This document shows positions 2,945-45,188 of a stretch of 64,000 nucleotides of DNA, one piece after another (the first letter of the stretch is position 1; each line of letters begins with the position of its first letter). A model generated the notes under the pieces. It was not told the DNA's origin. It did no database searches and worked only from the letters and a program-made list of their open reading frames with translations. The stretch spans positions 930,001 to 994,000 of the forward strand of contig NZ_UWPB01000001.1 in NCBI RefSeq assembly GCF_900604945.1. Direction: 5' to 3'. The DNA comes from Ruminococcus sp. Marseille-P6503 (lineage in GTDB: Bacteria; Bacillota; Clostridia; Oscillospirales; Ruminococcaceae). Both the position numbers and the translations under genes were made by a program.

Positions 2945-3025
2945 CTACTATAAAAATAATTATTTACAAATAAGGCAAATATATCTTGACTTTTAAGGCG
3001 TTTTGTGTTACAATGGAGGTATAAG

Positions 3026-6000
3026 ATGAATAGCAAAAAAATAAATGAAATCAAGACTTCCCTTCCAATCCTGCAAAGTTATATTTTTTCTGATATAAAA
3101 ACATATAAGAAATTTTTAAGGCTTGCAGGATATACATACGAATATACCTTTGAAAATCAGCTCATGATCTTCAAGTATAATCCATATGCGAAGTCTTGTG
3201 CAACATTTGAACAATGGACGTCTGAGTTTGATAGACGGATCAACAGCAAATCGCAAGGAATTCCTGTGATTATTGATGGAAAACTGGAGTATTTGTTTGA
3301 CTCGTCTTCAACTTCTAAGAAGTATGATTATCAACCTGATGAGCCAGTTGTATGGCAGCTTGATGATAATAATACTGAAAAAGTAACTGCTGAACTTCAA
3401 TATGATTTTACAAACGCTAATCATATTGCAAATGCAATTAGGTTAGAAACGAATAAGCTTACATTTAAAAGCGAAGCTCAGAAGGAATTAATTTTAAATA
3501 GTGTGGCTTATGTGGTTTGTGAAAGATGCGGCGTTAACGGCGATGAGTTGATTGACGATGATATTGTTAGCATATTGAAATCAAGTCGTAGCAACACGGT
3601 CGATATAGGCAATTATGTCAATCGTCTAAGCAGAACTTTTCTACAGAAAATTGAGAATTGTCTGGACAATAATACGGAAAGGACGGATAATCATGAAAGA
3701 GAAAATCATCAACGGAATTCGTCACGTGCAGATACCCGGCACGGAGGAATGGTTGGCAGACACACTGTTCGAGGAGAACGGAACGTATATGCTGGACGAG
3801 AGAGAGGGTCGATTTCAGTATTATCCGATTTCAATGGAAAAGCTGACTCCAGAGGAGATAACTCCGGAAATGCGGATGGCTTTCATGGCAGAGCTAACGG
3901 AATCGGAAATGAACACCGAGAATCGTTACAGCCTGGGACGTCGCGAGAATTGGGAAATGGAGTTGATGCCTCGTTCTCTGAGAACGCTGTATTACAAAGA
4001 GGGCGATCATTGGATATTGGACAAAACGGCAGTTCCGTCAACGAAATACGCTCAGATCGCTCTGAAGCATATGAAGACTTCTCAAAAAGAGCTGTACAAG
4101 GATTTGAAAACGTCGAAGATGTTGGGATTGTATCTGGCGAAGCTAGACGATACTTGTCAACAGAAAATAGATCTTCTGACGGAGCAAATAATGAAAAGAG
4201 ACGAAGTGAACGCAGAACTTCAGAAGAAAGATTGGATGAAATACAGTCAGATGTTGAACATGAGCAAGCTGGAAGCGGAGGAAATAATCCTTCAGGAAAT
4301 GATCTACGATCAGTAAATTCAAATGCGGCAGGAACTACAATTCCTGCCGTTACTTTTTATAATAAGGATCAAAATATCATCGGCACTGTGAATGTTAGGT
4401 ATATAAAAGCAAAACGGTACAGAAAATTTGATACACCAACTGCAATCAGAATTGCTGAACAATTTGAAAAAAGCAATATATCATATTCGGGGAAAATTGA
4501 AGATAATTTTACAACGCTTACTTTTTCAAATGATGATATGTTACGCTGCAAAGCTATTATTTCACAAATTGAACGCAGCCTCCAGGAAAATGCCAAGGAA
4601 CTTAAGCACAGCGCAGCACGACTTAATCCTGTTACTGATCAATATAACAGTCTGCAAATTATAAAGGATGTTCAGAAGGCTTTAAAAGATCTATATAATG
4701 ACGACGCTCATGAAGGCGAGGTAAATGGCGGTTATGATTGGAAAAATTTCATAAGTAGCCTTGATGTTGTTTCAAAGCATAATCCCGGAGAAATAAGAAC
4801 ATTGATTAATGTTTCAGGTGCTGTTACTCTTTTACAACGAGCCTCAGAAATGAACAGTGGCACTTCAACTGAAAAAGAATACACATTTGCAAATGAGATT
4901 TTAGAGAAAATAATTAATGATTATCATTCAACGATAATTAATCCATCGGAGCATACTGATCAATTATCGGTGTTTGATAATTTTGTTCCTATTTCTGATA
5001 CCGAAAAAAAGCTTGCCGATAATGCAGAAGATAATATTTTGTTAGTAAATGATTTCAAAAAATTTGCAGTAGGTAGCTTGCAAGACAATTTGACTATACG
5101 TAATGCTCATCAAAATTCCGATAATGCAGAATTTCAATTAGAAGTACATAATGCAGTTAATGATTTGCTCACAGACCTTATTGCAGGCAATCAGCAGATT
5201 GAAGGATATGCTTTTAATGATATTTCTGTCTTTTACGACAAGTTTTTTGCTGATGAAACAATGCAAAAGGATATTTATAGATCTGTAATTGAAGATGTTG
5301 ACACATCGTTGCAGCAACTTGAAAAAGCACGAATTATTGCTAAAGAGCAAGGTATACCTTTTTCAGATAAATTTAGTAACGGGTTGGACGATGATGATCC
5401 CAATATCTATACATATGACGGAGGTATGTCTCCTGAAGACTTTTACAAGTGGCAGCTTTTAAATGAGCTGGCTGAAATAACAGGCGCAGAAGACGGTACG
5501 CCATATAAACTTATAGAAACATTTGAACAAAACCATGAAAATGCAGAAAATCTGATTTTTGAAATACTTAATGACAATGAATTGGCTCACAAAGTATTTA
5601 CTGTAATTTCCAACAGCAGATATATGAAAAATACTGCTTCTGATAGCGTCACAAAGTCAACTGAAGATAATTTGCCGACAATCACATGTGAGTGGAGCGA
5701 AAGCAATTATTTTGAGGATGGTAAAACGTACACAGTTTATGAGTTTGACAAACTTATGAAACAAGCTGATGATGAAATGGTTGCAGGAGCAAAAGCGGCA
5801 ATTGAAAAGTACGGTTCATCCGAGGCTTGGTATAGCTCTAATGATTATGATGAGTTTACACAGTTTAAGGGCTATAATAAAGTCAAATTCACTTTGAATA
5901 TGCCTAACGGAACGTCTTTTACCGAAAGGCAGGATGTAGGCGACGGTTACGGAGGGGTGATCGACTTTCTCCGTCAATATTCTAGCTACAAGAGTATCAT

Positions 6001-9000
6001 TCCTTTACTTGAATCTGTCAGAGATCTGCAAAAAGCAGAAGTAATTCTTGACAAAACAATATCAGAGAAAGCGCAGCTTGAAGTCTCTCAAACTACTATT
6101 GAAGCAGAAAAAAAATCTGAAGTTACAAATTATAAAGAAACGGATTTTACAGGAAACCAGTTATCTTTATTTGATAACTCAATTTCCTTTGAAGAATCAA
6201 AGAATGAACATCAGACAATAATTACTTCCGAAAATCAGATAGATTCCGAAGCTGCAGAGCCAAGAACAAATATTGAATCCTTGAAAAAACAGTTTGTAAA
6301 GTATTCAAGTGATAACACAATTTATGGTAAAAAAACATATGAACGGCTCAAAAATGCGCTTACTGAAAATAGTATTGACGTAAGAAGCCTTGAAAAAAAT
6401 GATTATCACATTTTTGAAACGGCTGAAAGATACGGTGCTAAGACTAATTTTCGCAACAATATAACGGCAATACGTCTGTTAAAACAAATTGAAAGCGAAA
6501 ATAGATTTGCAGACAGCAAAGAACAGCAGATTCTTGCAAAATATGTTGGATGGGGCGGTCTGCCTCAAGCTTTTTCACACGAAAATGAAAAATGGAAGAA
6601 AGAATATATTGAACTGAAGGATCTGTTGACAGAGAAAGAATACAGAGATGCAGCTACATCAACGCTTAGTTCTTTCTATACTGACTACAATATCATTAAT
6701 CAGATTTATGATTGTTTAATAAATATGGGCTTTGAATATGGCAGTATTCTTGAACCATCAGCCGGGATAGGAAATTTTATAGGCTCTATGCCTGTTGAAA
6801 TGTACAAACAATCGAAAATAACCGCCATTGAGCTGGACAGTATCGCAGCTCGTATAGCGAAATTGTTGTATCCATCTGCAAACGTTCAAATTAACGGATT
6901 TGAGAAAACTCAACTTGAAGATAATTCTTTTGATCTGGCAATAGGTAATGTCCCTTTTGGCGGATTTTCAGTTTTTGATCCCAAATATGACAGCCATAAA
7001 TTTATGCTGCACGACTATTTCTTTGCAAAGTCCATAGATAAAGTACGACCTGGAGGAATAGTTGCCTTTATCACATCTACGGGAACGATGGATAAGAAAA
7101 GTACAGACGTAAGAAAATATATAGATGAACGTGCTGAATTTATCGGTGCAGTAAGATTACCCGGTTCTGCATTTGCAACAACAGAAGCAAGCGCAGACAT
7201 TATATTTTTAAAGGTAAGAAAAAAGCCTGAATACACTAAATCTGAATGGATAGAAACAGATATAGCAGCTGACGGATTTACTATCAACAAATATTTTCTT
7301 TATCATCCTGAGATGGTTTTAGGAAAACGCGTTGCTGTAAATAAAATGTATGGACGTTCTGACAGTGCAATGTATGTGCCGTTCGATAATAACAATGATA
7401 TATCTGATTTACTGCATAAAGCATTACAGAATATCAAAACAGATTATAATGCGCAGCGTGTCTTTACTAAAGATAAAAATGAAAACGGACGTATCAAAGC
7501 ACCGGAACATCTGCAAGATACCAGGAATTACAGCTATATAATTTTTGATGATAAACTTGCTTTTTATAAAGACGGCTATATCGACTTTGTAAATGTAACT
7601 GAACGTGAAGAATCAAAGTATAGGCAGCTTATTGCCGTACGTGACAGCTTACGAAAACTTATTGCATTGCAGCTTAATGAAAGTACATCGGATGAACAGT
7701 TGAATGAGCAAAGAAACAATTTATCAGCTGAATATGATAAATTTGTAAAGAAATTTGGATATATAAATTCGCGCAACAACATTAATTTATTTAAAAATGA
7801 TAATTCCGCAATGCTTCTGACTTCCCTTGAGATTTTTAATGACAAGGGATTTGAGCGCAAAGCTGATATTTTCTTTAAAAGGACAATCAGCCCTCGTCAT
7901 GTTCCTGACAGGGCAGATTCTGCATATGAAGCATTAATTATATCTATGTCCGAAAAAGCAAGAGTGGACATTGACTATATTTCTGATCTGTGCGGAAAAT
8001 CATATCAGGAAGTAATTGACGAGCTCAGAAACGTTATATATCCAAACCCCGAAAAGTTTGACGGATATGGCAACGTTATATATGAATTGGCAGATGAATA
8101 TTTATCAGGTGATATACGTGAAAAGTTGTCAGCTGCCAAAAAAGCCGCTGAGAAGAACCCTTTATATGAAGCAAATATAAATGCTCTTAATGAGGCAATG
8201 CCACAACCATTAACGGCTGCGGAAATTGAAGTAAGGCTAGGAGCTACGTGGATCGATCATGAATACATAAGACAGTTTGTTTATGAGTTGCTGCAAACTC
8301 CGGTCAGCTTACAATATCTAGATACATTACCACCACGGTTGAATAATGATAGAATTGATATCGAATATTCAGAGTTCACTGCAAGATGGAATGTTTCCAA
8401 TTTCAAAAGAGATAATGATAATGTTCGCAGCAGTAATATTTATGGAACACAAAGAATAAGTGCATATGAAATAATTCAAAAAACACTTAATCTCCATGAT
8501 ATAAAGGTATATGATACCTATTACGATTCTGATGGTAAGCCTCAAAAAACGCTGAACAAATCAGCTACAATTGAGGCTCAGCAAAAGCAAACCTTGATTT
8601 GCCAGGAATTTAAAAATTGGATTTTTAGAGATTCGGAGCGCAGAAACAAACTGGTAGCAAAATATAACAGATTGTTTAATTCAATCAGACCGAGAACGTA
8701 TGACGGCTCCTTTTTGAAATTTGTCGGTATGAACCCTGAGATACAACTAAAAAAGCATCAGAAAGACGCTGTAGCTCATGGATTGTTTGGAGGCAATGAA
8801 TTATTAGCTCACGTCGTAGGCGCAGGAAAAACGTTTGAAATGGCTGCTATAGTCATGGAAGGCAAAAGATTAGGCTTACATAACAAAAGCCTTATAGTCG
8901 TTCCTAATCATATTACAGAACAGTTTGCTGATGAATTTATGAACCTTTATCCAGGTGCTAATTTGCTTGTTGCAAAGAAGACAGATTTTGCGAAGGAAAA

Positions 9001-11299
9001 CCGTAGGGCGTTATTTGGAAAAATAGCGACCGGAGATTATGACGCAGTTATTATCGGTCATTCTCAGCTAATTAACATTCCTATGTCCCAAGAGCGTCAG
9101 GTAGCTTTCCTTGAGAGACAGCTTGATGATATAACTACTGGTTTAGCCGAGGTAAAATACAGTAGGGGTGAAACTTTTCAAATCAAGCAAATGGAAAGAA
9201 CTCGAAAAACTCTTGAAGAAAAGCTGAAAAAACTCACTGAGACCCCTAAAAGAGATAATATTGTTACATTTGAAGAAATGGGCATTGACAAGCTTGTGAT
9301 CGACGAGGCGCATGCTTTTAAAAATTTGTATTTGCATACGAAAATGAATAATGTTGCAGGACTTTCTGCTGCCGGAGCTGCAAAAACCGAAGATCTGTAT
9401 ATGAAATGCGAATACATAAATGAGAAAACTAATTGCAGAGGCTTAGTTTTTGCAACAGGAACGCCATTAACTAAATCTATAACGGAAATATACACCCTTC
9501 AGCGTTATTTACAACCTGAATATTTGAAAAAAACAAATTTGTATCATTTTGATTCATGGGCTTCTACGTTTGGAGAAACAGTAACTGCCACTGAACTTGC
9601 TCCTGAAGGAACAGGGTATAGATTGAAAACACGTTTTTCACGTTTTTATAATTTACCTGAACTTATGGCTGCGTTTAAATTAGTCGCTGATATAAAAACA
9701 TCTGATATGCTTAATCTACCAGTACCTAAGTGTAACGTTCACAATATAAGTGCCGAACCTTCGGAAATTCAGGAACAGCTTATTAAAAATCTGAGCAAAA
9801 GAGCAGCTAAAATACACTCTGGTGAAGTAAACCGCGATCAAGATAATATGCTGAATATAACAAATGATGGTCGTAAAATCGGATTAGATCAACGTATTAT
9901 TAACTCCGATTTTGAAGATAATCCAAATTCCAAAGTTAATCTATGTGTTAAAAATGTATATAAAATTTGGCATGATACCGCCGATAATCGTTTAACTCAG
10001 CTTATTTTTTGCGACTTCTCAACTCCAACTGGAAAGTCTGAATTTAATATTTATGATGACATCAGAGACAAACTGATTGCACAAGGAGTACCGCGCGATG
10101 AAATCGCATTTATTCATGATTATAATACAGAGATTCGCAAAAAAAATCTCTTTGAAAAGGTACGCAGCGGCGATATACGGATTCTTCTTGGATCAACCGC
10201 AAAAATGGGGGCGGGTACTAATGTGCAAAATAAACTCATAGCTACTCATGACTTGGATGCTCCATGGAATCCGTCAGATTTGGAACAACGTTTAGGACGG
10301 ATGGTTCGCAGAGGAAATACTAATGACGAGGTAAATTTGTATCGCTATGTCACCAAAAATACTTTTGACGCATATTTATTTCAAATGCTTGAAAATAAGC
10401 AACGACCGATAAGTCAGATCATGACTTCAAGATCTGCAATGCGTTCATGTGACGATATTGACGAAGCAGTTTTGAATTATGCCGAAGTTAAGGCTTTATG
10501 TGCAGGAAATCCGTTGATTAAGGAAAAGATGGAATTAGATATTGAGATTACAAAGCTACAGTCGCTTAAAGCTTCGTATCTTAATAATGTATATCGCATG
10601 GAAGACGATGTGCTTAATAAGTATCCAAAGGAAATTACATTTTGGAAATCCAAAATTTACAATTTGCAAAAGGACATTGATATTTCAATGAAATATCCAA
10701 TTATTAAGGATAGCGATAATAAAAGGGTTATGACAGATTTGGTTATCAACGGAGTTACATTTACCAGCAAAAATGAGGCTGTTGAAGCTATTAATCAAGC
10801 TATAAAGAAAGCTCTGGATCATAAAGATACTTCTCCTTTTGCCCATTATCGCGGCTTTGATGTAGCGGCTGCACACAATCCGATAACTCTTGATGACGAA
10901 CTTTTATTATCCGGCAATGGAACATATCGCTTAGAGATAAATTTATTGAGTTCCGGTATAATAACCAAAATGGATAACTGTATAAAGAATTTTTCAAAGG
11001 AGTTATCAGAATCTAAAAAACAGCTGGGCATTGCAGAAAAAAATCTTGCTCAAGCAAAAGAGGAAATAAAGAAGCCATTTCTGCAGGACTCGGAACTTAA
11101 TTCTAAGCTTAAACGTGCAGCAGAGTTGACGGTACTGCTTGAACTCAATGATAAAACCGAAAATGGATTGGAAAAGGAGGAAAAAAAAGAATCTGTCCGA
11201 AAAAAAATAAAGGAAAATCAAGCAATAATAAAAAATCGGGATATTCAAAAAGAATTGCTTAAAAATGAACGTCCTGAGAAAATCTGTTCTGGAGAATAG
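3026..11299 (+). CDS. Giant ArdC-like / N6-adenine methylase / SNF2-type helicase polyprotein
   Basis: About 2757 residues. I start at the ATG at 3026, 5 bases after GGAGGT, rather than at an upstream GTG. Seen in order: an ArdC-like N-terminal domain (about 20-110, FENQLMIFKYNPYAKSCATFEQW); a Gly/Ser/Arg/Asn-rich linker (about 220-440); long alpha-rich regions of the large polyvalent protein type; VGWGGLPQAFS; a Rossmann methylase with motif I EPSAGIGNF (about 1243) and motif IV-like GNVPFGGF (about 1306); Walker A GAGKT (about 1932); DEAH (about 2092); ATGTPLTKS; and QRLGRMVRRGN (about 2420). Such proteins are hallmark genes of Clostridia conjugative elements; protection of incoming DNA from restriction is the usual inference. 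The linker DNA is also read in another frame (see 3693-4316). A TTGACT-17-TACAAT promoter ends at 3014, so transcripts from it would be almost leaderless. Confidence 0.9.
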   Translation: MNSKKINEIKTSLPILQSYIFSDIKTYKKFLRLAGYTYEYTFENQLMIFKYNPYAKSCATFEQWTSEFDRRINSKSQGIPVIIDGKLEYLFDSSSTSKKYDYQPDEPVVWQLDDNNTEKVTAELQYDFTNANHIANAIRLETNKLTFKSEAQKELILNSVAYVVCERCGVNGDELIDDDIVSILKSSRSNTVDIGNYVNRLSRTFLQKIENCLDNNTERTDNHERENHQRNSSRADTRHGGMVGRHTVRGERNVYAGRERGSISVLSDFNGKADSRGDNSGNADGFHGRANGIGNEHRESLQPGTSRELGNGVDASFSENAVLQRGRSLDIGQNGSSVNEIRSDRSEAYEDFSKRAVQGFENVEDVGIVSGEARRYLSTENRSSDGANNEKRRSERRTSEERLDEIQSDVEHEQAGSGGNNPSGNDLRSVNSNAAGTTIPAVTFYNKDQNIIGTVNVRYIKAKRYRKFDTPTAIRIAEQFEKSNISYSGKIEDNFTTLTFSNDDMLRCKAIISQIERSLQENAKELKHSAARLNPVTDQYNSLQIIKDVQKALKDLYNDDAHEGEVNGGYDWKNFISSLDVVSKHNPGEIRTLINVSGAVTLLQRASEMNSGTSTEKEYTFANEILEKIINDYHSTIINPSEHTDQLSVFDNFVPISDTEKKLADNAEDNILLVNDFKKFAVGSLQDNLTIRNAHQNSDNAEFQLEVHNAVNDLLTDLIAGNQQIEGYAFNDISVFYDKFFADETMQKDIYRSVIEDVDTSLQQLEKARIIAKEQGIPFSDKFSNGLDDDDPNIYTYDGGMSPEDFYKWQLLNELAEITGAEDGTPYKLIETFEQNHENAENLIFEILNDNELAHKVFTVISNSRYMKNTASDSVTKSTEDNLPTITCEWSESNYFEDGKTYTVYEFDKLMKQADDEMVAGAKAAIEKYGSSEAWYSSNDYDEFTQFKGYNKVKFTLNMPNGTSFTERQDVGDGYGGVIDFLRQYSSYKSIIPLLESVRDLQKAEVILDKTISEKAQLEVSQTTIEAEKKSEVTNYKETDFTGNQLSLFDNSISFEESKNEHQTIITSENQIDSEAAEPRTNIESLKKQFVKYSSDNTIYGKKTYERLKNALTENSIDVRSLEKNDYHIFETAERYGAKTNFRNNITAIRLLKQIESENRFADSKEQQILAKYVGWGGLPQAFSHENEKWKKEYIELKDLLTEKEYRDAATSTLSSFYTDYNIINQIYDCLINMGFEYGSILEPSAGIGNFIGSMPVEMYKQSKITAIELDSIAARIAKLLYPSANVQINGFEKTQLEDNSFDLAIGNVPFGGFSVFDPKYDSHKFMLHDYFFAKSIDKVRPGGIVAFITSTGTMDKKSTDVRKYIDERAEFIGAVRLPGSAFATTEASADIIFLKVRKKPEYTKSEWIETDIAADGFTINKYFLYHPEMVLGKRVAVNKMYGRSDSAMYVPFDNNNDISDLLHKALQNIKTDYNAQRVFTKDKNENGRIKAPEHLQDTRNYSYIIFDDKLAFYKDGYIDFVNVTEREESKYRQLIAVRDSLRKLIALQLNESTSDEQLNEQRNNLSAEYDKFVKKFGYINSRNNINLFKNDNSAMLLTSLEIFNDKGFERKADIFFKRTISPRHVPDRADSAYEALIISMSEKARVDIDYISDLCGKSYQEVIDELRNVIYPNPEKFDGYGNVIYELADEYLSGDIREKLSAAKKAAEKNPLYEANINALNEAMPQPLTAAEIEVRLGATWIDHEYIRQFVYELLQTPVSLQYLDTLPPRLNNDRIDIEYSEFTARWNVSNFKRDNDNVRSSNIYGTQRISAYEIIQKTLNLHDIKVYDTYYDSDGKPQKTLNKSATIEAQQKQTLICQEFKNWIFRDSERRNKLVAKYNRLFNSIRPRTYDGSFLKFVGMNPEIQLKKHQKDAVAHGLFGGNELLAHVVGAGKTFEMAAIVMEGKRLGLHNKSLIVVPNHITEQFADEFMNLYPGANLLVAKKTDFAKENRRALFGKIATGDYDAVIIGHSQLINIPMSQERQVAFLERQLDDITTGLAEVKYSRGETFQIKQMERTRKTLEEKLKKLTETPKRDNIVTFEEMGIDKLVIDEAHAFKNLYLHTKMNNVAGLSAAGAAKTEDLYMKCEYINEKTNCRGLVFATGTPLTKSITEIYTLQRYLQPEYLKKTNLYHFDSWASTFGETVTATELAPEGTGYRLKTRFSRFYNLPELMAAFKLVADIKTSDMLNLPVPKCNVHNISAEPSEIQEQLIKNLSKRAAKIHSGEVNRDQDNMLNITNDGRKIGLDQRIINSDFEDNPNSKVNLCVKNVYKIWHDTADNRLTQLIFCDFSTPTGKSEFNIYDDIRDKLIAQGVPRDEIAFIHDYNTEIRKKNLFEKVRSGDIRILLGSTAKMGAGTNVQNKLIATHDLDAPWNPSDLEQRLGRMVRRGNTNDEVNLYRYVTKNTFDAYLFQMLENKQRPISQIMTSRSAMRSCDDIDEAVLNYAEVKALCAGNPLIKEKMELDIEITKLQSLKASYLNNVYRMEDDVLNKYPKEITFWKSKIYNLQKDIDISMKYPIIKDSDNKRVMTDLVINGVTFTSKNEAVEAINQAIKKALDHKDTSPFAHYRGFDVAAAHNPITLDDELLLSGNGTYRLEINLLSSGIITKMDNCIKNFSKELSESKKQLGIAEKNLAQAKEEIKKPFLQDSELNSKLKRAAELTVLLELNDKTENGLEKEEKKESVRKKIKENQAIIKNRDIQKELLKNERPEKICSGE
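3693..4316 (+). CDS. tnpV: TnpV-like protein encoded out of frame inside the giant polyprotein gene
   Basis: A 207-residue frame nested entirely in the linker part of the 3026-11299 gene. The ATG at 3693 follows AAAGGACGG at good spacing, better than the ATG at 3651. The C-terminal 100 residues match the TnpV family of small transposon-borne proteins: a run of helices with ELYKDLKTSKMLGLYLAKLD, then DLLTEQIMKRDEV, then the family-end signature EAEEIILQEMIYDQ. It is a well-formed protein (mixed hydrophobic and acidic), whereas the host frame here reads as low-complexity Arg/Gly/Ser/Asn. Local GC is higher than in the flanks. This suggests that the TnpV frame is the constrained one and the host linker is its by-product. 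The role of TnpV is not known. Confidence 0.7.
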   Translation: MKEKIINGIRHVQIPGTEEWLADTLFEENGTYMLDEREGRFQYYPISMEKLTPEEITPEMRMAFMAELTESEMNTENRYSLGRRENWEMELMPRSLRTLYYKEGDHWILDKTAVPSTKYAQIALKHMKTSQKELYKDLKTSKMLGLYLAKLDDTCQQKIDLLTEQIMKRDEVNAELQKKDWMKYSQMLNMSKLEAEEIILQEMIYDQ

Positions 11300-11441: not shown

Positions 11442-12374
11442 CTATGCTTTTGCAAAATAAAGCTCAAGAGCCTTTTCAATTATTTCGGAAATTTCATCTG
11501 CATTAGCTTTCTCATCAAAGAATTTACTATAGATTTCACTATTTATCCTTACAGTCCTGTTTTTTGGAATAGTTTGCGTTACATCGGTCATTTTTCCCGA
11601 TAAAATTTTTACAACAGTAAGTTGATCCAAGCCTTGAAGTTTATCATATTGACGCAGCTGCTCAGATTTTTTCATATCAATCTTATATATTTTCGCAAAC
11701 TTAATCAACATTTCTTGAATTTCCTGCGGAAGATATGATATGTTTACAGCCGCTCTGACCGAAATTGTTTTATCGTCTACAAGAGGTTTAAGCCCGTCTA
11801 TAAGCATATTTATTCTTAGCAACCGTGCAACGGAATCTTTACTCATGCGATATTCGTCTTTGAGCTTTTGCGCGGTTGTAAGCGTTTCTTTTTCTGAGGA
11901 ATATTCGCCTTTCTCCATTCTGTGCAGTTCCTCAATAATATCATTTCTCTTGCCTTGTGAAAACATCTGACTATGACGCATTGCTATAACTGCCGCTTGT
12001 TCTGAGATTTTAAGATTATCAAATCCTCTTTGCATAAGATTGGATTCAATGACGTACATTTCTGCTTCTTCCTCTGTAAGACCGTCTTTGATGATTGCCG
12101 GAACAGTCTGCTTTCCTGCCAGAATTGAAGCATTCCAACGGTTATGTCCTATAAGTATTTCATATTTGCCATTAAGCGGTTGAACGATGATCGGAATAAG
12201 CACACCATTGTCCTTTATGCTTGATACCATATCGTCAAGCCTCTCGCCGCTGTAAAGCTCGAATTTGTGATTGTGATAAGGTACAAGCATATCGCAGGGT
12301 ATCTGCTTGACCTGATTTTCCGTCGCAACGGACGGCGTACTGAGCATTGCTCCCAAATCAAATGCTGCTGTCAT
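11442..12374 (-). CDS. parB: ParB-family partition protein
   Basis: A 310-residue ParB/Spo0J-type protein. The N-terminal ParB nuclease/CTPase-like fold is seen at residues about 22-115: LVPYHNHKFELYSGERLDDM, then GVLIPIIVQPL, then IGHNRWNASILAG (the GxxR-type motif) and ESNLMQRGFDNL. A central helix-turn-helix part follows (KDEYRMSKDSVARLLRI, about 165-185). The C-terminal 50 residues may dimerise. The ATG follows GGAGG with a 9-base spacer. The gene starts 34 bases after parA on the same strand. With ParA it would segregate or stabilise the element, by binding a parS-like site and stimulating ParA (family knowledge). Confidence 0.93.
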   Translation of the reverse strand: MTAAFDLGAMLSTPSVATENQVKQIPCDMLVPYHNHKFELYSGERLDDMVSSIKDNGVLIPIIVQPLNGKYEILIGHNRWNASILAGKQTVPAIIKDGLTEEEAEMYVIESNLMQRGFDNLKISEQAAVIAMRHSQMFSQGKRNDIIEELHRMEKGEYSSEKETLTTAQKLKDEYRMSKDSVARLLRINMLIDGLKPLVDDKTISVRAAVNISYLPQEIQEMLIKFAKIYKIDMKKSEQLRQYDKLQGLDQLTVVKILSGKMTDVTQTIPKNRTVRINSEIYSKFFDEKANADEISEIIEKALELYFAKA

Positions 12375-12408
12375 TTCTTTTTCCTCCGTTTCTGCCTGAA
12401 CCTATTTT

Positions 12409-13209
12409 TCAGCTTTTACTTGTTCCCTGTTTACTTAAACAAATAATTTCTTCTGATAATTCAGTGTATTCATCACCAAGTCTGTTTTTCATCTTACATA
12501 ATGCATTTCCACTCTCTGTGGATTTAGCAGCTTCAACAGATTTATGTATTACTGTGCGGAATAAATTGTTGTATTCGTCAGAAAGCTTTCTAAGAGCGGT
12601 TTTACTGACGATAGTGTTATCTACCATTGTTGGCAGTACACCTATCAGAGTAAGTGTTGGATTGATTGTAGCGCGTATTTGGTAATAAAGAGAATTAAGA
12701 GCCTGTAAGCCATCCATTGCAAATTTTTGAGTTTGTACAGGAATAATCATTCCACTTGCCGCAGTTAGGGCGTTAATAAGCAGTATACCGAGAGACGGTA
12801 GGCAATCGATAAGAACGTAATCGAAATCCTCCATAACGCTGTCTGAAAGTATACGCTTTAATATTGTCTCTCTCGCAAGAGCTGTTGACATAACGGTCTC
12901 GGCGTTCGCAAGATTGATGTCGGCAGGTAGATAGTAAAGGTTGTTCAATTCGTTATATCTGATACATGACTTTACGATTTCGGCGGAAACCATTGCTTTT
13001 GAAGCTACCTCCGTTATGAGCTGCGTCATCGTAGGTTTATTGTCCGCATCCACAAATCCGAGGTATTCTGAAAGATTAGCCTGCGGATCTAAATCTACAA
13101 GTAACACCTTTTTGTCAAATTTAAGCGCAAGAGCAGCTCCAAGATTGAATGTGGTTGTGGTTTTTCCTACTCCACCCTTTTGATTGCAGATCGCTATTAC
13201 TTTACTCAT
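12409..13209 (-). CDS. parA: ParA-family partition ATPase
   Basis: A 266-residue Walker-type ATPase. The deviant Walker A motif KGGVGKTT lies at residues 10-17, Walker A' DLDPQANLSEYLG at about 40-52, and the Walker B-like DYVLIDCLPSLG at about 128-139. The length is standard for a small (type Ib/Soj-like) ParA without an N-terminal helix-turn-helix domain, so autoregulation would need another protein. The start overlaps the end of the small upstream gene by 8 bases, which implies translational coupling. It would form a nucleoid-bound gradient that moves ParB-bound DNA (family knowledge). In integrated elements such pairs stabilise the excised circle. Confidence 0.95.
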   Translation of the reverse strand: MSKVIAICNQKGGVGKTTTTFNLGAALALKFDKKVLLVDLDPQANLSEYLGFVDADNKPTMTQLITEVASKAMVSAEIVKSCIRYNELNNLYYLPADINLANAETVMSTALARETILKRILSDSVMEDFDYVLIDCLPSLGILLINALTAASGMIIPVQTQKFAMDGLQALNSLYYQIRATINPTLTLIGVLPTMVDNTIVSKTALRKLSDEYNNLFRTVIHKSVEAAKSTESGNALCKMKNRLGDEYTELSEEIICLSKQGTSKS

Positions 13210-13805: not shown

Positions 13806-15176
13806 TTATCTTGAGCGGTTGTTATCCTTTTCTTTTACTTCTTTTTCAGGCTCTTCGGTACGCATATACTTATCGAGCTGCCGCCTCATTTTTTCAAGTT
13901 TATACGCTTCTTTTTTCGACTGGCTGTATTCTGAATACAGTCGGTCTTTTTTTTCTTTCAACTCATCGATCTGTTTTTGAATAATTGAAATCTGGGGAAG
14001 TTTTTTTCTCCCGAATTGTTTTCTCAGTTGTTCAACAGCTTCCTCATACAGCATTATATTGCTTTCGTTTTCTCTGAAAAATTTTTCTTTATTTTTTGCC
14101 GTTTTATACTTATCATACAGTGGTTTTAATTCGTTATATTCTTTCAAGTTTCTGACTGATATTTGCAACGAATTTATTTTACTATCAATAGTCTTTATCG
14201 ATTCTCTGGCTTCAATTCTTTGCTCATGCATTTCATCAGTTTTCGCTAAAAGTTGGCTGTCATTGCTTATTCCATGCTCAGATAAATAGCTGAGTATTTC
14301 CGCTGCTGCTTTGAAATTCTTCAATTTAGCCCAATGCTCCAGACCATCGCCTTGTCTGAATTTTTCCTGAGAAGTATCAATAATTTGCGGAAGATTAAGT
14401 GACTGCATGAATTCACGACGTCGTCCAGTATTTTTTTCAATACGCTCTATAATTTTTTCTTCCGTATAGTAATAACCTAATGTTTTTGAACGAGTATACC
14501 GCTGCTGTCCCGGAGCTTTAAATTTCAAATAAACGCCTTCGTTGTTGACCTCATAGCCAGCTGAACGCATTTTGTTTATAAAATCATCGAAGTTTTTTGC
14601 AGTCCTTATATTTGTGTCGATCTCAGATCTAAGTTTGCTTTTATACGATTTTCCTTCTTTATCTATTAACCATTCATAATAAGATTTTCCTGTTCCCAGA
14701 TAAGCATTTTCAACAATTGAAAGATTCATTTCCTTACATATCTCGTCAGAAATTTTTCTAACGAGATACCACGCTTTTCCGCCGCGATTGTGTTCTGTAT
14801 TAAATGTTCTGCCTGATACCATATTTACAGAATTAAAAATGATATGGTTATGTATTTTTCCCGTGTTTAAATGTGTTGCAATTACATATTCGTACTGTCC
14901 TTTTAATAGTCTATCCGCAAGCTTTTTTCCTGCCTCCATAGCTTCTTCTACTGTTACTTCACCAGCTGCAAACGACTGATATATATGATGTGCAAGTACG
15001 CTGTTCTGACCTGTTCCTTTTGTGCGCTGAGTGAATAACATTTCGGAAGCTGCTGTGGTAGGAGTGCAGGCATAGGATTGAATTGTTCTTCCATTATCCG
15101 TTTTGTATTTGTTACATATATATTTTATTGCAAGATCTAGCGTTTCTGTGATAGCAAAGATACCTGTAACCGCCAT
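13806..15176 (-). CDS. mobA: MOBP-type relaxase (MobA/MobL/VirD2-like nuclease)
   Basis: A 456-residue mobilisation relaxase. The catalytic part is the first 200 residues: an N-terminal strand-helix with YIC..Y candidates for the nicking tyrosine, GQNSVLAHHIYQSF (about 77-90), and the metal-binding His triad in ATHLNTGKIHNHIIFN (about 120-135), the relaxase motif III. RGGKAWYLVRKISDEIC follows. The C-terminal 200 residues are a long charged coiled coil. The start follows GGAGG at 4 bases and overlaps mobC by 40 bases. The protein nicks oriT and pilots the transferred strand (family knowledge). No coupling protein gene is in the window. Confidence 0.92.
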   Translation of the reverse strand: MAVTGIFAITETLDLAIKYICNKYKTDNGRTIQSYACTPTTAASEMLFTQRTKGTGQNSVLAHHIYQSFAAGEVTVEEAMEAGKKLADRLLKGQYEYVIATHLNTGKIHNHIIFNSVNMVSGRTFNTEHNRGGKAWYLVRKISDEICKEMNLSIVENAYLGTGKSYYEWLIDKEGKSYKSKLRSEIDTNIRTAKNFDDFINKMRSAGYEVNNEGVYLKFKAPGQQRYTRSKTLGYYYTEEKIIERIEKNTGRRREFMQSLNLPQIIDTSQEKFRQGDGLEHWAKLKNFKAAAEILSYLSEHGISNDSQLLAKTDEMHEQRIEARESIKTIDSKINSLQISVRNLKEYNELKPLYDKYKTAKNKEKFFRENESNIMLYEEAVEQLRKQFGRKKLPQISIIQKQIDELKEKKDRLYSEYSQSKKEAYKLEKMRRQLDKYMRTEEPEKEVKEKDNNRSR

Positions 15177-15469
15177 ATTTCCTCCATTTTTTCGTTTAAA
15201 GTTTTTAAATCTTCTGCATATAAAGAGTTTGTTGTATTTACTCGTTTTGCAATTTGATTTATGTTATTTGAAATGCTGAAAAGCAATTGATTCATACGCT
15301 TTAACTGTTCAGAATCTACTACTTTTATTTCACCGTCAACAGTCATTTTTCTGACATATGCACTTAAATTTTCTGTGCCGATTATCTGCATTTTTGCATT
15401 GATAATTTCCATTTCCTCTTCAGAAAAATACACATGAATCTGCTGCTTACGTCTACGATTTTTTTGCAT
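15137..15469 (-). CDS. mobC: MobC-like relaxosome accessory protein
   Basis: A 110-residue protein. I start at ATG 15469, which has AGGAG 8 bases upstream; a longer frame would run through the palindromic oriT-like DNA. The N-terminus is very basic (QKNRRRKQQ), followed by IHVYFSEEEMEIINAKM, a ribbon-helix-helix-like start, and a MobC-type helical core with LSAYVRKM and NNINQIAKRVN (the typical family signature). It overlaps the relaxase gene by 40 bases, so the two are coupled. MobC proteins melt or hold oriT for the relaxase (family knowledge). Confidence 0.88.
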   Translation of the reverse strand: MQKNRRRKQQIHVYFSEEEMEIINAKMQIIGTENLSAYVRKMTVDGEIKVVDSEQLKRMNQLLFSISNNINQIAKRVNTTNSLYAEDLKTLNEKMEEIWRLQVSLLSQKR

Positions 15470-15522
15470 TTTGTCATCTCCTGATTTTTTTGGTTTAGGG
15501 GTTTGGGGGCTTCCCCAACAAG

Positions 15523-15566
15523 CAATTTTAACACATTGTTCACTAATGAACAATGTGTTAAAATTG
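15523..15566. repeat. Perfect 20-bp inverted repeat
   Basis: The arms begin CAATTTTAACACATTG and are perfectly complementary over 20 bp with loop CTAA. There is no T-run bias beyond the arms, and the right arm runs straight into a second palindrome, so I read it as a protein-binding or oriT dyad rather than a terminator. Confidence 0.8.
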
Positions 15567-15586
15567 GCAAGTGTGTACACACTTGC
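15567..15586. repeat. Perfect 20-bp palindrome
   Basis: GCAAGTGTGTACACACTTGC is its own reverse complement. It adjoins the 20-bp inverted repeat on its right and is a likely dimer-binding site in the oriT region, for example for MobC or the small ribbon-helix-helix protein. Confidence 0.75.
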
Positions 15587-19005: not shown

Positions 19006-19058
19006 AAGAACATAGAAAGGGAAAGGAAAATCCCAAACACCAGAAAGGAATGATCTCA

Positions 19059-19715
19059 ATGGCAAAAACGATAAGAATCTCTTACAAGGATTATAAGAAT
19101 GATGAAAATTTTCGTAAGTGTAAGTCTGTACCCGACAGCTATGATTCAAGAACAAAAACAATTGAAATATATATGCTTGACATATATGAATATGTTGACA
19201 AATACACAGAAGCAAGAGCACAGGCAGATATTCGCACTTGTGAACATGTTTCAAGAATGTTGTACAAGATTAAGGAACTTAAAAGCACTCAAAAGATGCA
19301 GCTTAAAGGCACTCAAAGAGTGCAGAAAACTACGGAAATTGAGAGCACAAACGATTTTATCGGAAAGAAGATGAAAAACGGAAACTTCTTTGATGGATTG
19401 AATGAACTTTCATGGTTTGATTTTTCTGATGATGACGACTACATGGTAAAGCAAATTTACAAAGCTATGCTCGAAGCTGCACAGAATTATATGTCTGATA
19501 TGTCTATTGCTTCTGACGGTACGTTTAAGCACTCTTATTTTAAGCTGATATTTGAGAACGGCGGCAAACAAAAAGAGATATGCTTTAATTCAGCTGTATC
19601 TCCTCGCTATGTAGAAGAATATCTTGAGTTAGACAAACATTCATGCGTTTTAGAAGAATACGACTACGACATAGAAAGCGATACGTTTACTCTTGTAAAA
19701 AAAGAAGATGCTTAA
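19059..19715 (+). CDS. Unrecognised 218-residue protein under the duplicated promoter
   Basis: I start at ATG 19059, 9 bases after AAAGGA; the ATG at 19050 would abut that site. The N-terminal third is basic, the C-terminal two thirds acidic (FSDDDDYM, EEYDYDIESD). No domain is recognised. The beta-rich end (HSYFKLIFENGGKQKEICFN) could be a small alpha+beta domain. It is a monocistronic unit between the terminator at 18895 and a weak hairpin at 19724-19747. Because it shares its promoter module with the 16.2-kb unit, it is probably expressed under the same condition, for example induction of the element. Confidence 0.6.
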   Translation: MAKTIRISYKDYKNDENFRKCKSVPDSYDSRTKTIEIYMLDIYEYVDKYTEARAQADIRTCEHVSRMLYKIKELKSTQKMQLKGTQRVQKTTEIESTNDFIGKKMKNGNFFDGLNELSWFDFSDDDDYMVKQIYKAMLEAAQNYMSDMSIASDGTFKHSYFKLIFENGGKQKEICFNSAVSPRYVEEYLELDKHSCVLEEYDYDIESDTFTLVKKEDA

Positions 19716-19723
19716 GGAACAAG

Positions 19724-19747
19724 AAGCGGAGTTTAACGGCTCCGCTT
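19724..19747 (+). terminator. Weak terminator-like hairpin
   Basis: AAGCGGAG / CTCCGCTT, 8-bp stem with an 8-base loop, followed only by TTAATATTAT. It may end the 19059 gene. Confidence 0.4.
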
Positions 19748-19890
19748 TAATATTATCAGTCAGAATGATGTTCAAATTTTATGAGAAGGACAGCTTATGT
19801 GATTTTCATTCTTTTGAGTGTGTCAGCATGACACACTTCTTTTTTCAAAATAAATAAAATAATAAATTGAAAATTTTTTTTGATGAAGTA

Positions 19891-19919
19891 TTGACATTTC
19901 AAAAAATACAGTGTATAAT
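19891..19919 (+). promoter_or_regulatory. Strong promoter before the structured RNA region
   Basis: Consensus TTGACA (19891-19896), 17-base spacer, TATAAT (19914-19919). No ribosome binding site or credible ORF follows within several hundred bases, so the transcript is probably non-coding. Confidence 0.75.
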
Positions 19920-19925
19920 ATTGGC

Positions 19926-20583
19926 ATAGGGTAAGTAAGATTCTTGAAACTATCCATTTTTGGGTAAAAAAATAAAACACCCCCACAGGCTAAACTTTCT
20001 TGCCGGAAAGTTTAGCCCAAGCCGCACAGATGTCTCACCACAACTGTGAAACCTTTTGAGGATGCTTAATCTCGTGCTTTATTTTAACACGATTAAGATA
20101 CATTTGTCAAGAGCTTTTCAGATTGTTTTAAGCAGACATCTGAGAAGCTCTTATCTTTTTGCTAGTTAAATCTGTTTTCACAGATTTGATATAGAATCGG
20201 ATAAGCCTCCGCTAGGTGACTAATTATCCGATTACAACTGAATAAAGAATTTGATGTCGGAAGACTGACCACTCCAACAAGAACTACGCCGAGACCTGCA
20301 CGCCATGACCTTGATCAGAGCGAGCGATAAAATGCAGCAGCGAGTATATATACCCGTGGGTTGAGCTACCGTTGGGGATTCGTTTGAAAGCGAAGTATGG
20401 TGCAGTTGCAAATAGTAATTTGCGAAAGGCAATGCGAAATGCCGTTTACTCTTATAGCATAATGGACTATAAGACAAACTGAGATGAGGTTGGGTCACAT
20501 CATTGCATTAGCATCAGCAAAATGAAAAACATCAAAAACAAAAAATGTATTTATCGGGTGGGTCGGAACTCACCGATCCGCCC
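19926..20583 (+). ncRNA. Candidate large structured non-coding RNA (about 650 nt; ROOL/GOLLD-like hypothesis)
   Basis: Behind a consensus promoter comes a gene-free stretch with a series of stable hairpins. Seen: 19951-19966 (6 bp), 19988-20017 (12 bp, GGCTAAACTTTC), 20025-20048 (5 bp), 20065-20097 (10 bp plus a bulge), 20109-20152 (15 bp with one G.U), 20168-20187 (8 bp), 20195-20233 (10 bp, AATCGGATAA), 20408-20423, 20451-20473 (7 bp) and a terminal 11-bp stem 20556-20583 (two G.U pairs). Loops between stems are purine-rich, as in ornate RNAs. ROOL and GOLLD RNAs are of this size, occur in Firmicutes mobile elements and stand alone next to their own promoter; assignment to them is a guess. 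A T-run after the 20152 hairpin could instead end a shorter RNA of about 235 nt. Confidence 0.6.
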
Positions 20584-20616
20584 TTAAATATATGACAATT
20601 GAATAAAATATTAACA

Positions 20617-20634
20617 GCGGCTGTTAACCGCAGG
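20617..20634 (+). repeat. 18-bp inverted copy of the tRNA-Asn anticodon arm
   Basis: GCGGCTGTTAACCGCAGG is identical to the anticodon arm of the neighbouring tRNA-Asn gene (20734-20751), in inverse orientation, with about 100 bases between. It also forms a dyad TTAACAGC/GCTGTTAA with its left flank. It may be a leftover of integration or an integrase arm/core site at the tRNA end of the mobile element, but a chance dyad is possible. Confidence 0.5.
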
Positions 20635-20657
20635 CGGTCAACGAGCTGATATATTGT

Positions 20658-20692
20658 GCAAAGTCCGTAAACACGATGTTTACAGACTTTGC
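20658..20692. terminator. Strong hairpin downstream of tRNA-Asn
   Basis: A 16-bp stem with one mismatch (GCAAAGTC-C-GTAAACA / TGTTTAC-A-GACTTTGC) and loop CGA, 11 bases past the tRNA-Asn 3' end. It probably ends or processes the rRNA/tRNA transcript on the minus strand, although no clear T-run follows. Confidence 0.5.
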
Positions 20693-20702
20693 GGAGTAAT
20701 AT

Positions 20703-20778
20703 TGGCTCCCCAAGTTGGACTCGAACCAACGACCCTGCGGTTAACAGCCGCATGCTCTACCGACTGAGCTATTGAGGA
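20703..20778 (-). tRNA. tRNA-Asn (anticodon GTT)
   Basis: A 76-nt cloverleaf: acceptor TCCTCAA / TTGGGGA, D-arm AGCTCAGTCGGTAGAGC, anticodon arm with CTGTTAA (GTT), T-arm GTTGGTTCGAGTCCAAC, and encoded CCA. It is the last gene of the rRNA operon. Its 3' end faces the AT-rich mobile element, so it is a plausible integration target. Confidence 0.97.
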
Positions 20779-44875: not shown

Positions 44876-45188
44876 AAGTTTTGAAAAGTTAATAATTTAA
44901 ATCCGTTGATCAAAGGTAAGTAGCCTGTTTGGATTGTTTCAGAGAGCTGATGGCCGGTGTGAATCAGCACATGATGTTCAGGTGAATGGATTTGTGAGGA
45001 GCAGTGTGAAATCTTAGCTGAAAGTATCACTCGCCGCGTGTTCCTGCGTTAGTGTGACTGAGTATTGATTTCAAGGCTTATGCCGAGAATGCGTACTTGT
45101 GAGCCGGCGTTTTTCGCCGGGAAATTGGGTGGCACCACGGTTCTATCGTCCCATAGCGTTATGCTATTGCGGCGGCAGGACTTTTTTT
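44876..45188 (+). ncRNA. T-box riboswitch leader of the trp operon (tRNA-Trp)
   Basis: About 310 nt. Seen: AGAGAG (44941-44946, stem I), a specifier candidate GAATGG with TGG at 44987-44989 just before the closing ATTT that can pair with AAAT at 44899-44902, the T-box sequence TGGCACCACGG (45130-45140), and a terminator GTCC..GGAC with an inner ATAGC/GCTAT stem and TTTTTTT (45148-45188). TGG is the Trp codon and fits the genes downstream. Uncharged tRNA-Trp would stabilise the antiterminator and switch on trp synthesis (family knowledge). Confidence 0.93.

Follow-up and report, generated by a model that had tools for sequence, protein, structure and literature searches.

A covarying RNA family at the attachment end of tRNA-integrated elements in Ruminococcus and its relatives: a candidate antisense-controlled transcription attenuator

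The DNA analyzed here (the window, i.e., a stretch of 64,000 nucleotides from Ruminococcus sp. Marseille-P6503, to which coordinates refer unless stated otherwise) contains a non-coding gap between an open reading frame at 19050-19715 and a gene for tRNA-Asn (GTT) at 20703-20778 on the minus strand. The tRNA gene is adjoined by 5S, 23S and 16S rRNA genes, all on the minus strand as well. For positions 19891-20583 within this gap, the original prediction had proposed a consensus promoter followed by an ORF-free structured RNA of about 650 nt, perhaps of the ROOL or GOLLD type, in a mobile element. The promoter, of the sigma-70 type (TTGACA-17-TATAAT, 19891-19919, plus strand), did match the consensus at 12 of 12 positions, and no plus-strand ORF of 60 amino acids or more was found within 19891-20583, nor did this copy contain an ATG ORF of 18-120 amino acids with an SD-like sequence. 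Folding of 19926-20600 gave -194.7 kcal/mol, compared with -152.3 kcal/mol for 20 dinucleotide shuffles (z = -8.77). Many stems were present, including a final GC-rich one at 20556-20583, but of the several said to be perfect over 10 bp or more only two proved to be so (12 bp at 19988-20017 and 10 bp at 20195-20233), the others having mismatches, as in a 15-bp stem at 20109-20152 that is 93% paired. The proposed length of about 650 nt is qualified by a terminator-like stem followed by a T-run (P6, 20109-20160) inside the stretch, so that transcription may by default yield an RNA of about 235 nt instead. A minus-strand promoter-like site running from 20110 to 20081, with 11 of 12 matches, was absent from the original prediction.

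The gap lies at the end of an integrated element. A 29-nt repeat in the 3' end of the tRNA-Asn gene (20702-20730), which serves as the presumptive attachment site, has a second copy with 96.6% identity 47 kb away (C7:903736-903764, outside the window), and from the sequence the window copy of the RNA forms the end of a 47-kb element of conjugative type whose integration site is tRNA-Asn. A hairpin at 20658-20692 adjoins the attachment site, and a similar stretch is found before the far one. Within the window the element carries genes for ParB and ParA (11442-13209, minus strand; Pfam ParB_N and AAA_31/CbiA) and for a relaxase and NikA/MobC-like proteins (13806-15580, minus strand; Pfam Relaxase, NikA-like and MobC), while its part outside the window encodes, according to Pfam, a tyrosine integrase, a PrgI-family protein and a RepA_N protein. 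It also encodes a protein of 2764 amino acids with SNF2, helicase and LPD25 domains (3005-11299, plus strand). Between the RNA and the attachment site, at 20617-20634, lies an 18-nt exact inverted copy of the anticodon-arm sequence of the tRNA-Asn. This analysis confirmed that the structured RNA has a promoter of its own and lies in a mobile element, and no Rfam family matched it at threshold. At gathering scores, Rfam models detected only rRNA, tRNA and one T-box, i.e., a leader at 44897-45156 on the plus strand, in the whole 64 kb.

Three copies of the RNA were found in the organism's own genome, i.e., that in the window, one 85% identical to it over most of its length, and one matching it at 77% over about 200 nt in the 5' part. 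Three more came from two genomes of the same genus and one MAG titled Ruminococcus. A covariance model (R1) built on 130 positions of the 5' core in six sequences detected eight further, more distant loci, and a second model (R2) was built from 14 sequences; both span the helices P2 to P5. Since eight candidates were scored per genome in the large searches, the prevalences obtained with R2 are lower bounds: in the family at least 32 of 396 genomes (the organism's own among them), at least 6 of 394 in a sample of the order, all of them from the same family, and at least 1 of 391 in a sample of the class, this being the own genome. Searches by blastn with the window RNA against phage and plasmid records, and with two homologues against plasmid records, gave no match. 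Viral contigs yielded nothing with a strict pattern and 95 stretches with a loose one, 80 of which were searched with R2 without a significant match (best E value 0.28). Ten homologous loci, compared with Rfam, matched tRNA and no other family. Among titles and the starts of abstracts, we recognized no paper describing this RNA, which could be included unnamed in a survey of thousands of candidate RNAs from human microbiomes (PMC8040213).

Covarying pairs in homologues were a check that the original prediction had named, and they were found. In an alignment of 37 loci (A6; six further R2 places from the family search were left out), all 27 pairs were changed on both sides, standard pairs occupied 90.1% of 948 cells compared with 55.2% in shuffles, and the covariation score was 0.77, compared with 0.17 in shuffles and 0.10 or less when the partners were slid, although the alignment was fitted to the structure, which favors these figures. 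With a MAFFT alignment of the six close sequences, which was not fitted to the structure but from whose sequences the structure had been drawn, 2 of 500 shuffles reached the observed covariation score and 1 of 500 the number of cells paired; further pair types in the same alignment were unremarkable (63 of 500 shuffles). The stems P1 and P6 lie outside R1 and R2, and their pairing was judged by eye together with separate tests of P6 and of the closing stem described below. A candidate GAATG:CAUUU pairing around P5 was dropped, being broken in locus L018. We conclude that the window RNA represents a new covarying RNA family, seen in one bacterial family in the genomes sampled.

The conserved 5' core, defined by R1 and R2, the 37 loci and covariation, occupies 19926-20160 on the plus strand (ends predicted) and consists of P1, P2, P3 and P5 followed by P6. 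A plus-strand promoter upstream of P1 had 11 or 12 matches in 27 of the 37 loci; the scan covered 90 nt and the window's own promoter lies partly outside it, so that this copy was scored as 9. The window copy carries an insert before P1. All 12 pairs of the hairpin P2 (19988-20017, loop 20000-20005) change on both sides among the 37 sequences, and the hairpins P3 (20025-20048) and P5 (20072-20092) covary too. Between P3 and P5 is the motif GGATGC (20060-20065; GAATGC in others), the complement of which can close a stem in the predicted antisense RNA.

The loop of P5 holds the -10 box of the minus-strand promoter (TTGACA-18-TAAAAT, 20081-20110). P5 is followed by a conserved motif, UUUGUCAAG, whose complement is CTTGACAAA; together with the complement of the P5 loop, the latter makes up the promoter. 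It occurs at a fixed offset in 35 of the 37 loci (12 of 12 matches in 16, 11 in 9, 10 in 7 and 9 in 3), a conservation not wholly independent of the selection of the loci, since R1 and R2 include part of the minus-strand -35 box. Promoters with at least 11 matches were virtually lacking in mononucleotide shuffles. In L013 and L014 the minus-strand promoter is poor or lacking.

The transcript predicted from this promoter is an antisense RNA of about 105-115 nt (19967-20074, minus strand, with approximate ends) that would span P3, P2 and the 3' arm of P1, and consist of two hairpins and a closing terminator-like stem with a U-tail. Its ends can pair, e.g., GCAUUCAC with GUGGGUGC, and a U-run follows; in the window the closing stem has 11 bp. 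On the antisense strand the closing helix had a mean of 9.5 contiguous bp compared with about 7 in shuffles, whereas on the sense strand the mean was 5.4 bp, the same as in shuffles (about 5.4). A closing helix of 8 bp or more was present in 30 of 37 loci on the antisense strand and in 1 of 37 on the sense strand, although these counts refer to helices of that length rather than to this exact stem, because the longest helix is sometimes in another register; in the other seven loci the stem was shorter than 8 bp. The G-U pairs of the closing stem would be A-C mismatches in the sense RNA, an indication that for this stem the functional molecule is the antisense RNA. The antisense strand of the window at 19968-20084 folds at -46.0 kcal/mol (z = -5.1), and the four antisense RNAs that were folded all adopted the same closed two-hairpin structure, with z values from -4.5 to -5.7.

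P6, the stem that resembles an intrinsic terminator by a sequence rule and is a candidate attenuator, met a loose form of that rule in 36 of the 37 loci (L063 was missed), but so did 149 of 370 shuffles, and we therefore also counted stems with at least 12 pairs, which were present in 32 of 37 loci compared with 8 of 370 shuffles. The apical or 3' part of P6 offers an alternative partner for the 5' arm of P3, to which it is complementary; in the window, CAGATGTCT (20027-20035) could pair with AGACATCTG (20134-20142), forming a candidate antiterminator. With 33 of the 37 sequences (four near-duplicates were dropped), the helix between the P3 5' arm and P6 had a mean of 7.48 bp when the partners were matched and 6.61 bp when they were permuted, a value that none of 2000 permutations reached, whether or not G-U pairs were allowed. 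Of the 2000 permutations run for each of four control segments, between 88 and 1418 reached the observed value, the fewest being for the P3 3' arm when only Watson-Crick pairs were counted (p = 0.044). Taken singly, only 7 of 37 sequences reached p ≤ 0.05 for the P3:P6 helix. P6 is present in the minimum-energy fold of the window leader, so any antitermination would have to be kinetic.

Beyond the core lies a 3' module, which in the window occupies 20165-20583 on the plus strand and ends in the GC-rich stem. It is variable. After the core, the window module is 84% identical to that of L011 and shares only pieces with L012, L013 and L061, and the modules of the family fall into several groups without detectable similarity to one another. 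Four short forms at tRNA-Met have no module, with 63-90 nt from the core to the tRNA, P6 included. The 16S leader of the organism's own rRNA operon, and also a spacer in that operon, contain CTTGAAAATTGAATA, which we take to be the rrn boxA region. On the sense strand, 11 of 33 modules agreed with the rrn 15-mer at 12 positions or more, whereas none of the 33 did so on the opposite strand; the motif had been noticed in the modules first, and the 15-mer was tested afterwards. In the window copy the boxA-like stretch, GATTACAACTGAATA (20230-20244, plus strand), is weak (10/15, p = 0.34).

The position of the core relative to tRNA genes, which played no part in finding the loci, is also conserved. 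A convergent tRNA gene lay downstream in 33 of the 37 loci, 63-731 nt past the end of the modelled core, compared with a chance estimate of about 1% (25 tRNAs in 989 kb around some of the loci); the exceptions were L014, L026 (at a contig end), L045 and L055. Three of the six R2 places outside A6 were examined, and each had a convergent tRNA. The tRNAs were those for Asn, Arg, Leu, His, Lys, Tyr, Met, Cys, Ala, Val, Gln, Ser, Thr, Pro and Trp. Among 13 loci examined, a second attachment site was found for seven; for five none was found in the stretches fetched, and one more had no tRNA to start from. Besides that in the window, the resolved elements were those of L011 (attachment repeat of 130 nt, 50 kb), L012 (65 nt, 36 kb), G185 (24 nt, 19 kb), G372 contig 1 (81 nt, about 53 kb), G217 (48 nt, 43 kb) and G167 (57 nt, 75 kb), which we term conjugative-type from their size and from reading of the translations. 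The elements of the window, L011 and L012 are three large elements in one genome, at tRNA-Asn, tRNA-Arg(CCT) and tRNA-Arg(ACG), respectively.

The reading that we favor, and consider moderately probable, is transcription attenuation under antisense-RNA control, exerted by a locus at the attachment end of mobile elements integrated in tRNA genes. The sequence itself shows the end of the element, both promoters, the covarying helices, P6, its covarying alternative pairing with P3 and the antisense fold; from these we infer transcripts, binding, attenuation and a regulated output, as follows. The sense RNA would start at P1 and head toward the attachment site, and the short antisense RNA would start in P5 on the minus strand, span P3, P2 and the 3' arm of P1, and stop at its own terminator. 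Binding of the antisense RNA is predicted to occupy the 5' arm of P3, so that P6 would form and the sense RNA would stop at about 235 nt. Without antisense RNA, the P3 5' arm would pair with part of P6, and the polymerase might continue through the variable module toward the attachment site. While the element is integrated, such read-through would run antisense to the tRNA; in the excised circle it would cross attP and enter the far-end genes, which are often int or par. As antisense RNA rises with copy number, such a switch would report the copy number of the element.

A precedent for such an arrangement is plasmid pIP501, where, as described in PMC4981023, facing promoters are present and a 136-nt RNAIII causes premature termination in the 329-bp repR leader. 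The predicted antisense RNA of about 110 nt, the predicted leader of about 235 nt and the terminator-like stem resemble that system as it appears there. Plasmid pT181 has an antisense-RNA transcription attenuator of the same type. Of the features that mark the pIP501/pT181 type, an antisense promoter facing the sense promoter within the leader is found by sequence in 35 of the 37 loci, and both a compact, hairpin-containing antisense RNA that ends at a terminator of its own, and a terminator after the antisense target with an alternative pairing, are predicted. The replication gene expected downstream was not recognized; a tRNA follows in 33 of 37 loci. Also unlike pIP501, the transcript would be aimed at the attachment site of an integrated element, and the RNA matches no Rfam family at threshold.

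What read-through might reach was examined at the far ends of the seven resolved elements, i.e., across attP in a circle. In five of the seven (L011, L012, G372 contig 1, G217 and G167; translations read) the far end begins with, or soon reaches, parA-parB. That of the window element starts with a minus-strand integrase, its parAB lying inside the element, and no parA was seen at the far end of the 19-kb element of G185; we therefore claim no single fixed target. No rep gene was recognized by eye among the far-end genes of the seven. A plus-strand terminator-like site occurs in the first 3.5 kb of all seven far ends, directly before parA in L011, L012, G372 contig 1 and G217, and before the first plus-strand gene in the window element. 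However, blocks from the interior of elements contained a mean of 1.0 such sites (14 of 20 blocks hold one), compared with 0.14 in shuffles. We therefore dropped the presence of a far-end terminator as a special feature, and only the position before parA is notable.

These far ends recall canT of Tn916. In PMC11658703, Tn916 is described as having a promoter and a structured non-coding RNA, canT, at one end of the element, with transcription reading through attP in the circle; the RNA lets transcription pass a terminator, T1, beyond attP toward the conjugation genes after excision. Promoter, RNA module and attP follow one another here too, and in four elements a terminator-like site stands immediately in front of parA. 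The layout fits the resolved elements, but 14 of 20 interior blocks also hold such a site. The portion of PMC11658703 at hand describes no antisense-controlled attenuator for canT. Antitermination of the canT type by the module is a candidate function here, hinted at by the boxA-like match in 11 of 33 modules; the window copy reaches 10/15. A more far-reaching reading is a two-stage gate, in which the antisense RNA would sense copy number at P6 and the 3' module, with its putative rrn-type boxA in many copies, would make the polymerase terminator-resistant; only in the excised circle would the transcript then pass attP and the terminators into the par and transfer genes, and loop changes would let several elements share one cell without mutual silencing. 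On these sequence features we regard the gate as possible but rather unlikely, having lowered our estimate slightly in view of the interior-block control.

A different use of the same two RNAs, control of copy number or replication of the excised circle, has a model in ColE1, where antisense RNAI covers the 5' hairpins of the long non-coding sense RNAII. The sense RNA would then be a precursor of an RNAII-type primer, with an RNAI-like antisense RNA, and the arrangement in the window is alike in that the predicted antisense RNA would overlie the hairpins at the 5' end of a long sense RNA without coding capacity. The facing promoters speak for this reading. The YUNR U-turn motif, typical of the loops in antisense control, was present on either strand in P2 loops at 30 of 37 loci compared with 40% of shuffled loops, the window being among the seven without it. 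Co-resident copies have different loops, as expected if the loops carry specificity: the differences between L028 and L033, which are almost identical and share one genome, are mostly in the P3 loop, and the copies in the organism's own genome differ in their P2 and P3 loops, among other places. Both loop observations equally support the attenuator. The parA-parB genes near attP in the circle (5 of 7 elements) and an A-rich run toward the 3' end of the window RNA also speak for replication control. Against it stand the terminator-like P6 directly after the antisense region, the 3' modules, which are unrelated between groups and missing in four short forms, and the initiator of the RepA_N type encoded by the window element; the location at an attachment site is a further difference from ColE1. 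We consider this explanation unlikely.

Less likely again is that the locus is an island of terminators insulating the element from the tRNA or rRNA operon, with the antisense RNA incidental. P6 could serve such a purpose, the tRNA operon converges on the RNA locus, and among 29 long forms nine had a further plus-strand terminator-like site before the attachment site and eight had a minus-strand one near the tRNA. Those nine extra sites would also limit read-through. A terminator at the end of the module was rejected as a general feature, being found in nine of the 29 long forms only. Insulation leaves unexplained the strong promoter directed toward the tRNA, the covarying P2, P3 and P5, the conserved antisense promoter and the P3:P6 alternative.

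The ROOL/GOLLD assignment in the original prediction was not upheld. As a rival it would make the locus a stand-alone structured RNA of 650 nt forming a multimeric cage, with antisense control as an extra. Size, own promoter, strong fold, mobile element and tRNA neighborhood all speak for it; in PMC12286853, ROOL and GOLLD are said to be often near tRNA islands in phages, and the window RNA resembles them, as described there, in being large, structured, on mobile DNA and near tRNA genes. When 19700-20700 was searched with E values up to 10, however, the 13 Rfam matches were all far below gathering scores (best E value 0.63), and neither ROOL (RF03087) nor GOLLD was among them; the GOLLD model was presumably present in the Rfam copy used. 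A ROOL search of the whole genome also gave nothing, which is weak by itself since control genomes gave nothing too. Unlike ROOL and GOLLD, the conserved part is a short two-strand core, and most of the length is unconserved between homologue groups, the 3' half being variable and, in four homologues, missing. We judge a cage RNA very improbable. That the pair is a type I toxin-antitoxin system, with a small peptide toxin encoded by the sense RNA and the antisense RNA as antitoxin, is hardly credible, because, although a sense/antisense pair on a mobile element might suggest it, a search for a conserved small ORF gave none: an ATG ORF of 18-120 amino acids with an SD-like sequence was lacking in 28 of 37 loci, and the ORFs in the other nine look unrelated except for a shared start in the close pair L028/L033.

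The antisense-controlled attenuator would matter because conjugative elements must be silent in the chromosome yet switch on after excision. If correct, a promoter directed at attP and followed by an antisense-controlled terminator would constitute a protein-free switch and copy-number sensor in Ruminococcus and its relatives, whose mobile elements have, to our knowledge, been little studied. The locus also illustrates that a 'giant RNA' called from its layout alone can conceal what may be a two-strand regulatory device.

Two observations concern other members of the family. In one single-contig genome, the cores of L092 (13098-13222 of that locus, minus strand) and L093 (10557-10682, plus strand) lie about 17 kb apart and point outward to tRNA-Leu and tRNA-Asn, respectively; a second attachment site was found for neither. 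The genes beside the RNA of L041 (3987-9663, minus strand), also catalogued as L032, look from their translations like what we take to be a type I restriction-modification set.
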